A stretch of 64,000 nucleotides of DNA from an uncultured Kiloniellaceae bacterium. Lineage in GTDB: Bacteria; Pseudomonadota; Alphaproteobacteria; Kiloniellales; Kiloniellaceae. Under the pieces are notes generated by a model. It was not told the origin of the DNA. It worked only from the letters and a program-made list of their open reading frames with translations, and did not search any database. The position numbers and the translations under genes are program-made. The stretch spans positions 1-64,000 of the forward strand of contig CANLSF010000005.1 in NCBI GenBank assembly GCA_947493695.1, given 5' to 3'. Shown here one piece after another: positions 39,390 to 40,840 of this stretch. How positions within the stretch are numbered: position 1 is the first letter of the stretch; each line of letters begins with the position of its first letter.

Positions 39390-39593
39390 ATCCGCTCCCG
39401 TTCGTATTTATTCTTCTTGCGTTAAAGTGCATTCACATCCGATCTTTGACAAGCTTGCTAACGGGCAGAAAAGCCGTGAACCGGCTGACGATGCCGCCTG
39501 GACAAGCAGGACGACCCGTTTTCACGCGTAGTTTGCGCGAACTCTTCCAAGAGCGCCTGAAACAAGATCGCGGCGCGAATGACATGGGGTAGT

Positions 39594-40364
39594 ATGACGA
39601 CCGATCCTCGCCTCGCCTTTGTGGCCAACGGCACCGACGAAGCCAATGGCGCACTGGAACGCCTTTCGCAACGTTACAGTCATGTCGCGCCGGAGGAAGC
39701 GGACGTGATCGTCGCGCTGGGGGGCGACGGCTTCATGCTGGAAACCCTGCACGCTCATCTGGATCGCCGGGTGCCGATCTACGGCATGAACCGCGGGACC
39801 GTTGGCTTCCTAATGAACGAGCACAACGAGGAGGATCTGGTTGAGCGGGTCGTCAATGCACGCACGGCGACACTCCATCCCCTGCGCATGACCGCGACCA
39901 ACATGTCGGGCGCGTGTTTCGATGCCCTGGCGATCAATGAGGTGTCGCTGCTGCGCGAAAGCCGGCAGGCCGCGAAACTCAAGATCAAGATCGACGATGT
40001 CGAGCGCATGGAAGAGCTGGTCTGCGACGGCATCATTGTTGCCACGCCGGCAGGCAGCACCGCCTATAATCTCTCCGCCCACGGACCGATCGTGCCGATC
40101 CGCGCGGCGCTGCTGGCGATCACGCCAATCAGCGCCTTTCGGCCCCGACGCTGGCGCGGCGCCCTTCTGCCGAACTCGGCGCACATTTCCTTTGAAGTCG
40201 TGGAACCCGCAAAACGCCCGGTCAGTGCCACAGCGGATTACACCGAGATCCGCGACGTCAAAGAGGTCTCGGTCTACGAAGACCCCTCTGTCGAGCTCGA
40301 CCTGCTGTTCGATCCCGAACACAGCCTGGAAGAACGGATCGTCAAAGAACAATTCATAGTTTAG
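39594..40364 (+). CDS. nadK: NAD kinase
   Basis: A 256-residue ATP-NAD kinase, which makes NADP from NAD. The catalytic GGDG loop is at residues 43-46 ([13 protein letters not shown]) and the second motif NEVSLLRE plus [19 protein letters not shown] are intact. Slightly shorter than E. coli NadK and typical of alphaproteobacteria. ATG at 39594 is preferred over one 15 bases upstream because GGGGTAGT lies right in front of it. Directly downstream lies the tandem hairpin array. Confidence 0.95.
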
Positions 40365-40365
40365 A

Positions 40366-40840
40366 GTAGATCGCGTTCCATCGAGCTAAACGTATTTTCT
40401 GTCAGATCCGAGGGAGCGTTTGCATAGCACAACGCGTTCGGATCAGGCGGAAAATGCCATCTTACGCGATCAGCTCCAGCGCGTATCGCGTTCAAAGAAA
40501 TAAGTATATTCGATGGCCGATCCGAGGCAGCGTTTGCGTAGCACAACGCGTTCGGATCAGTCGGAGAATGCACTTAAACGCGATCTGCGCAGCGCGTATC
40601 GCGTTCCATCTAAAAAAAAAGATCTATTCGAAGGTCAATCCGAGGCAGCGTTTGCGAAGCATAACGCGTTCGGATTGACCAGAGAATGCCGTTAAACGCG
40701 GTATGCGCAGCGCGTAACGCGTTCCACCGAGCTAAAGGTATTTTCTGTCAGATCCGAGGGAGCGCTCGCGGAGTGCAGGGCGTTTGGGTCAGACATGGAA
40801 TTCAGCCAAAGACGGTCTGCGTCGACACGTGCCGTTTCGA
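40366..40840. repeat. Tandem array of hairpin elements (about 115-bp unit, 3-4 copies)
   Basis: Immediately after nadK comes a series of repeating units with a period of about 114-118 bp (element A beginning near 40405, 40519, 40637 and 40751). Each unit has element A, a hairpin with a GATCCGA/TCGGATC outer stem and an inner GCGTT/AACGC stem around a TGCGTAGCAC-like loop, and element B with AACGCGAT/ATCGCGTT-type arms (best at 40577-40605). In the third copy the outer stem is AATCCGA/TCGGATT, a paired change that keeps pairing. The fourth copy is degenerate; a half-unit of B starts the array. No convincing ORF is present. Confidence 0.85.

Follow-up and report, generated by a model that had tools for sequence, protein, structure and literature searches.

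A dispersed palindromic element of about 117 nt behind nadK in an uncultured Kiloniellaceae bacterium, probably an IS630-type MITE with a conserved structured tip

Results

Four copies of one nested hairpin lie behind nadK

The window, a stretch of 64,000 nucleotides from contig CANLSF010000005.1 of an uncultured Kiloniellaceae bacterium, carries a hairpin array directly behind nadK. The array consists of four tandem copies of one palindromic element of about 117 nt, covering 40361–40824, and the nadK stop TAG (40362–40364) forms positions 2–4 of copy 1, hence lies inside the copy. The features are listed below, with bit scores from a covariance model of the element (R1) and z values from RNA folding.

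39579..40364, + strand: open reading frame nadK; NAD kinase is the label given by the sequence-only reading, and the product name is putative
40361..40478, + strand: element copy 1, YTAG end fused to the nadK stop; R1 103 bits, RNA z -5.99
40409..40441, + strand: 33-nt apex of copy 1, one mismatch, consensus CGAGGCAG...CGCGTTCGG (apex-pattern coordinates)
40476..40592, + strand: element copy 2; R1 120.5 bits, RNA z -5.71
40523..40555, + strand: 33-nt apex of copy 2, no mismatches
40578..40605, + strand: junction of copies 2 and 3 (the former 'element B'), a 3' inverted end followed by a 5' inverted end, from sequence and alignment
40589..40710, + strand: element copy 3, co-changed arms, middle stem of 11 perfect pairs; R1 112.2 bits, RNA z -7.97
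40641..40673, + strand: 33-nt apex of copy 3, no mismatches
40707..40824, + strand: element copy 4, decayed; R1 74.5 bits, RNA z -0.31
40755..40787, + strand: apex of copy 4, eight mismatches to the apex pattern

The array was re-found by a direct-repeat search (repeats at 40380–40840, start spacings of 114, 118 and 114, identity to the reference copy of 60–83%) and by Tandem Repeats Finder (period 118, score 391, at 40401–40726). The sequence-only reading had reported a hairpin array after nadK with a period of about 115 bp; array and period are confirmed, and the copy number, given there as three to four, is fixed at four. The nested stems that it described, GATCCGA/TCGGATC outside and GCGTT/AACGC inside, are present in the sequence, as are the altered outer arms of copy 3 with their 11 pairs, GGTCAATCCGA/TCGGATTGACC. 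Direct reading of copies 2 and 3 shows two pairs altered in both partners, with C-G in copy 2 replaced by T-A in copy 3 and G-C by A-T. Folding of each copy as RNA, which the same reading had proposed, bore it out for three of them: copies 1, 2 and 3 reached z values of -6.0, -5.7 and -8.0, with 0 of 200 shuffles as good in each case. Copy 4 folds no better than its shuffles (z -0.3, 69 of 200 as good) and is thus decayed. As DNA, copies 1–3 gave z values of -4.7, -3.6 and -6.2, and copy 4 one of -0.3. Four short arrays with a 27-bp period, possibly nine-residue protein repeats, lie elsewhere in the window at 445–2609.

Alignment of isolated copies defines the unit of about 117 nt as TNAGCGCGTGTCGCGTTCAAT, about 10 nt, TATTCGANGGCAGATCCGAGGCAGCGTTTGCGGAGCANAACGCGTTCGGATNGGCCNGAGAAT and GCAATTAAACGCGACATGCGNTN. 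Specifically, it is a single nested hairpin comprised of outer arms, a middle stem and an apical internal loop capped by a small hairpin, with YTAG at both element ends. TA occupies positions 2–3 in 31 of 55 copies, 30 of these after T or C, and the element ends in TA in 23 of the 55, 20 of these before A or G. The array had been parsed as two alternating elements, A and B. We rejected this parse, since isolated copies form one nested hairpin and B (ACGCGATCTGCGCAGCGCGTATCGCGTT) is absent from them, existing only at copy junctions; the element ends are mutually inverted repeats, so that a 3' end together with the next 5' end mimics a separate element.

With about 117 nt, the unit is too short for a transposase gene. 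Short forms of 78–79 nt lack a core of about 40 nt, the apex hairpin, and are found at L063, L064, L066, L115, L119, L121 and L122; L122 and L089, from two species, share their flanks, and only one of the two has the apex. In Rfam 15, the window gave nothing at the gathering cut-off except one tRNA, and the array locus (L001) gave no match on the element at E up to 5. A search of L001 together with six Rhodobacterales loci returned one below-cut-off match to a nematode snoRNA, on the opposite strand of the copy at L132. Integron attC sites, which share the look of a structure with bulges, were also considered.

Copies in the genome, the genus and another order

A BLAST search of the genome (6.46 Mb, 20 contigs) with the array returned 20 places at E up to 0.001, the array included. 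Model R1 gave 25 matches with E no higher than 6.2e-12, of which one is truncated at the end of its contig, and two weaker matches (E 2.8e-7 and 5.6e-5), giving a total of about 27 copies on several contigs. Additionally, it found three short forms of 78–79 nt and a piece at another contig end; two contig ends thus lie inside copies. Over 41 genomes, this one included, R1 matched in this genome, in three congeners (G001, Pelagibius sp. Alg239-R121; G002, uncultured Kiloniellaceae; G003, Denitrobaculum tricleocarpae R148) and in G030. The G030 matches, a different palindrome of 134–135 nt with its own flanks, were discarded. We also excluded antisense hits on copies already counted and two matches in G003, one weak and partial (C21:23329) and one to the second model R2 only (C6:209910). 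The four genus genomes hold 63 copies (27, 8, 16 and 12, weak ones included), 36 of them in the congeners, and G002 has a second array of three copies 115 nt apart. The covariance-model search suggested by the sequence-only reading did yield further copies in the genome and its relatives, with paired arm changes kept.

Two local observations belong here. On contig 3 of G000, five copies (L040, L041, L042, L046 and L050) within 285–325 kb have common flanks on both sides, and like-flanked copies occur in two sister species (also L105, L106 and L108); the 532-aa frame flanking L042 had no Pfam match. Loci L071, L075, L079 and L083, from a genome of another family of the order, are unrelated near-perfect palindromes of 134–135 nt with similar flanks (ACCAAGGARC).

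A 33-nt apex pattern run against a species-genome collection hit 23 stretches. Seven are from this genus, and 15 Rhodobacterales genomes account for the other 16. R2, which is 68 nt long and includes the apex, matched in all 15 of these pattern-positive Rhodobacterales genomes, with 28 matches in one MAG. R2 matched at least 35 of 390 sampled Rhodobacterales genomes (best E under 1e-6 in 21 of the 35) and at least 2 of 385 genomes class-wide, both of this genus; these are lower bounds, since 13 candidates per genome were scored in the two scans. The short form had no match among plasmids, and a Rhodobacterales copy had two weak matches among phages. In the literature searched, mainly open access, no description of the element was recognised, which is not proof of its being unpublished.

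Paired changes and G-U pairs in the arms

Covariation across the copies is strong. The first 23 copies show two-sided changes in 18 of 43 pairs, with 39 double-changed cells compared with 16.5 +/- 3.3 in shuffles. For 52 copies from both orders, two-sided changes affect 15 of 26 pairs, with 91 cells compared with 27.1 +/- 4.1 in shuffles and 16–45 in slid controls; relatedness of the copies inflates both shuffle tests. The 52 comprise 41 of the 63 genus copies and 11 from Rhodobacterales, weak, indel-bearing and near-duplicate genus rows being excluded. Over 108 sites, which come from 100 loci chosen among all fetched, with antisense matches removed and the alignment fitted to the model, pair columns such as GC 45 / CG 21 / TA 13 / AT 10 require many independent changes. 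Many arms of Rhodobacterales copies are unrelated in sequence, yet paired over most of their length. RNAalifold by itself recovered the inner stem and missed the outer one, which was placed by hand and then counted.

Pairing is thus preserved through two-sided changes in this genome, in the genus and in another order, which excludes what the sequence-only reading had named as the refuting outcome, namely stems without covariation or simply duplicated sequence. Simple local duplication was likewise rejected on the grounds that the copies are dispersed and that orthologous empty sites exist.

A strand that functions as RNA should accept G-U more readily than A-C. Over the 108 sites, G-U was counted 126 times and A-C 63 times; clustering at 85% left 114 versus 59 (p 3.5e-5), with 58/33 in Kiloniellaceae and 56/26 in Rhodobacterales, two pairs with a G-U consensus being excluded from these counts. 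Among BLAST-found copies, on which no pairing model had acted, the counts were 60 versus 33 (p 0.007) in 19 of the 23 copies, four near-duplicates excluded. The excess is modest, about 2:1, and some pairs are reversed (19-85: 1 to 6); the cells are not independent, and strand-biased mutation is possible. These sequence counts suggest, without proving it, a lean towards selection on RNA.

The apex is conserved between orders

The 33-nt apex holds 10 of the 14 invariant columns in 23 whole-element BLAST copies. Over the 108 sites of both orders, the columns of CGAGGCAG and CGCGTTCG are 87–99% conserved, and the capping hairpin is variable. Conservation of the apex between orders is partly built in, since the Rhodobacterales copies were found via the apex pattern and the apex-containing model, by which the same arms with another middle would be missed. 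The 29 fixed apex bases match exactly in genomes whose arms differ, so that homology of the copies between orders is safe.

Insertion sites and stop codons

Removal of near-end and flank-duplicate sites left 115 distinct sites from 138, and the genes around them were called with a home-made codon-usage script, not taken from curated annotation. By these calls, the element often lies at gene stop codons in these marine alphaproteobacteria. Of the 40 Kiloniellaceae sites, 15 have a sense stop adjoining the 5' end, with its last base exactly at element position 4 in 13; the corresponding numbers for the 75 Rhodobacterales sites are 24 and 13. An antisense stop adjoins the 3' end at four of the Kiloniellaceae and 19 of the Rhodobacterales sites. 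When only one side is occupied, sense stands against antisense at 13 versus 2 in Kiloniellaceae (p 0.007), 20 versus 15 in Rhodobacterales (p 0.5) and 33 versus 17 in both orders (p 0.03).

Seven sites were aligned with sister species. Five of them (L056, L038, L059, L052 and L058) are empty in the sisters, and L065 and L054 gave no clear reading, empty or filled. At nadK, L056, L059 and L052, sisters without the copy have the same stop codon. The near-empty nadK site of G001 has 53 bp from nadK to a conserved downstream block. No clean TA duplication is visible, as the flanks of filled and empty sites are too diverged. Where the array would lie, the nadK 3' regions of the two other congeners (L123, L124) have different short repeats of a GACCAGATTCGGGTTGGCC type.

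Some roseobacter plasmids carry the element between virB2 and virB3. In four element-free plasmids that were examined and have both genes annotated, virB2 and virB3 overlap in three and lie 15 bp apart in one. Plasmid-type Rhodobacterales loci with an insert between these genes are L131, L147, L129, L134, L137, L353 and L354; L131 and L147 have the element on the strand of virB2, and L129, L134 and L137 have it on the other strand, so that insertion there requires no fixed orientation.

The element ends resemble those of IS630 elements

Comparison with a Roseibium aggregatum IS630 (about 1.06 kb) gave 21 of 24 matching positions between the Kiloniellaceae arm consensus and the right end, 17 of 24 between this consensus and the left end, and 24 of 28 between one Rhodobacterales arm and that left end. 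The corresponding values of the consensus are 19/24 and 13/24 for the ends of a Rhizobium sp. L51/94 IS630 (about 1.05 kb), and 15/24 and 13/24 for those of an IS630 of 1093 bp in the congener G002. The G002 element has the ends TAGAGCGTGTCAGG / TAGAGCATGTCCGG, and its first TAG doubles as the stop codon of an adjacent 408-aa gene, presumably ABC-like by its motifs. DDE_3 domains are found in all three IS proteins, and the IS630 helix-turn-helix in those of Roseibium and G002. At L344, 1282–2302 on the - strand, the congener IS630 transposase lies in two frames (HTH 2302–1943, DDE_3 1893–1282). The two plasmid matches that revealed the IS ends were weak in BLAST, with E of 0.09 and 4.

A DDE_3 (IS630) search of this genome gave no match. 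Six of 11 other carriers have a DDE_3 match, some of them only pieces, and the carriers G433, G434, G520, G424 and G422 have none, so that the mobiliser is absent from several carriers, or diverged, lost or unassembled. Three of 11 IS630-type loci have an end within 4 mismatches of 16, L344 and L347 at two or more places; this threshold is loose, chance matches occur, and two further L344 matches are not ends. IS630-type mobility is accordingly argued from the element ends, the active enzyme for this genome being unseen. The element is short and dispersed, has no transposase gene of its own, bears IS630-like terminal inverted repeats and is polymorphic for insertion. It is probably an IS630-type MITE that uses YTAR targets and has an unusual conserved structured tip.

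Discussion

Taken as an IS630-type MITE, the element would move as follows. Its outer arms, which resemble IS630 terminal inverted repeats (TAGMGCGTGTCGCGTTYAAT), may be recognised in trans by an IS630-type transposase. Insertion would occur at YTAR, often the TAG or TAA stop of a gene, with duplication of the TA target, and the first G of the element would complete a TAG, leaving the gene product unchanged. Insertion of one copy into the dinucleotide that ends another may build the arrays, as may duplication afterwards; subtracting 2 from 117 would give the 115-nt period. A copy placed in a stop codon would become the start of the gene's 3' UTR. That selection maintains the hairpin, probably in its RNA form, is suggested by the conserved apex, the paired arm changes and the excess of G-U.

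The paired changes have a possible mutational explanation, in which structure is under no selection and template switching during replication makes one arm of a DNA palindrome match the other. Such correction is known for bacterial quasipalindromes, and some Rhodobacterales copies (e.g. G421 and G434) are indeed near-perfect palindromes of about 40 pairs, many with unrelated arms. However, conserved mismatches have stayed uncorrected: columns 14-55 of alignment A4 are unpaired in 27 of 52, about 10 nt stand opposite 2 nt between the outer and middle stems, and the apex bulges are kept. Strand-symmetric correction also does not give the excess of G-U over A-C, which is found after clustering (114/59), in each order and in the BLAST-only copies (60/33). 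We consider this explanation unlikely, though one to be taken seriously. The selection for structure put forward in the sequence-only reading is partly supported, in that paired changes are kept across the genome, the genus and another order, and palindrome correction may contribute to them.

Explanations that do without an IS630-type MITE fare worse. Vertical inheritance of an immobile RNA element in the 3' UTRs of particular genes would suit the sites common to three species (flanks of L045 at 578, L086 and L082) and the sense-side stop excess in the genus (13 versus 2, p 0.007), but the empty orthologous sites largely refute it, and the patchy occurrence (at least 35 of 390 and at least 2 of 385 genomes), the IS630-like ends and the use of both orientations in Rhodobacterales (20 versus 15) leave it next to no probability. 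Mobility by a Y1 (RAYT) transposase recognising a tagged single-stranded hairpin, as for REP/BIME-type elements, would agree with the hairpin shape, with Y1 matches in this genome and three congeners (2, 2, 3 and 1) and with ends that supply stop codons, as one study reports for GTAG REPs (PMC3733652). Yet the element measures about 117 nt against 20–40 and has YTAG at both ends against one GTAG or CGTC tag. Three of eight carriers have no Y1 match, a fourth (28 element-model matches) has only a 72-aa Y1 piece with a stop, and the contig with the best Y1 gene carries none of the 50 element matches listed for this genome. With its length, its two tags, Y1 not tracking the carriers (5/8) and IS630-like ends, the element very probably lies outside the REP/BIME group to which the array had been likened. 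The alphaproteobacterial CIR repeats, intergenic and associated with GANTC methylation sites, share a similar size of about 110 bp and a 5' TA according to a review (PMC2229807), and GANTC is found at one fixed position in 26 of 81 Rhodobacterales copies. In the genus, however, GANTC is depleted (8 of 63 copies versus 23.4 expected from shuffles), and CIR, compared by description only, is two arms and a linker where copies 1–3 are one nested hairpin; a CIR identity is highly improbable.

The closest known kinds of element appear from our comparison to be RUP (IS630-Spn1) and Correia/NEMIS, both likened by description, not by sequence. RUP of pneumococcus, according to the review, is 107 bp long, has IS630-like terminal inverted repeats and a TA target, and is thought to be mobilised by IS630-Spn1 (PMC2229807). 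Size and IS630-like ends are common to both, and our element would share the TA target; the host differs, and that review gives no functional motif for RUP, whereas the apex of our element is conserved. Correia/NEMIS elements of Neisseria are described there as having classes of 107 and 155 bp with an internal difference of about 50 bp, TA ends and hairpin transcripts, for which RNase III processing is proposed (PMC2229807). Our element also has two sizes, 78–79 and about 117 nt, which differ by a core of about 40 nt, in another host. GTAG REP/RAYT systems are palindromic, and REP ends often give the TAG stop of neighbouring genes (PMC3733652), so that the stop-codon habit is not new in kind; length, the tag at both ends, the IS630-like terminal inverted repeats and the lack of a consistent Y1 set our element apart. 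CIR of Caulobacter and Brucella are intergenic, with stem-loops, and in the same review two-armed with a conserved GANTC (PMC2229807), neither of which is in our element. Br-REP1 and Br-REP2 of Bradyrhizobium are palindromic 3'-UTR repeats of alphaproteobacteria as well, and their consensus sequences, of about 20 and 40 nt as printed, look unlike ours by eye (PMC5082802).

The element accounts for a virB2-virB3 insert of such kind on several roseobacter plasmids. MITEs are usually recognised by their ends, and their middle drifts. Unlike usual MITEs, this element is best conserved, within the genus, in its middle, which is recognisable in another order as well, and its arms co-change and still pair. 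A pure MITE gives no reason for the conservation of the apex between orders. As a speculative reading that we ourselves think improbable, the apex CGAGGCAG / CGCGTTCG, including the bulged G and A and the hairpin that caps it, could be a functional RNA motif in a transposon-borne 3'-UTR module, selected after insertion and bound or cut by a trans-acting factor common to Kiloniellaceae and Rhodobacterales. Filled, empty and apex-less sites of the same genes form a natural experiment on whether a mobile element supplies a working bacterial 3'-UTR structure. If the reading of the apex as such a motif is true, every stop-codon insertion would wire a gene into common post-transcriptional control.
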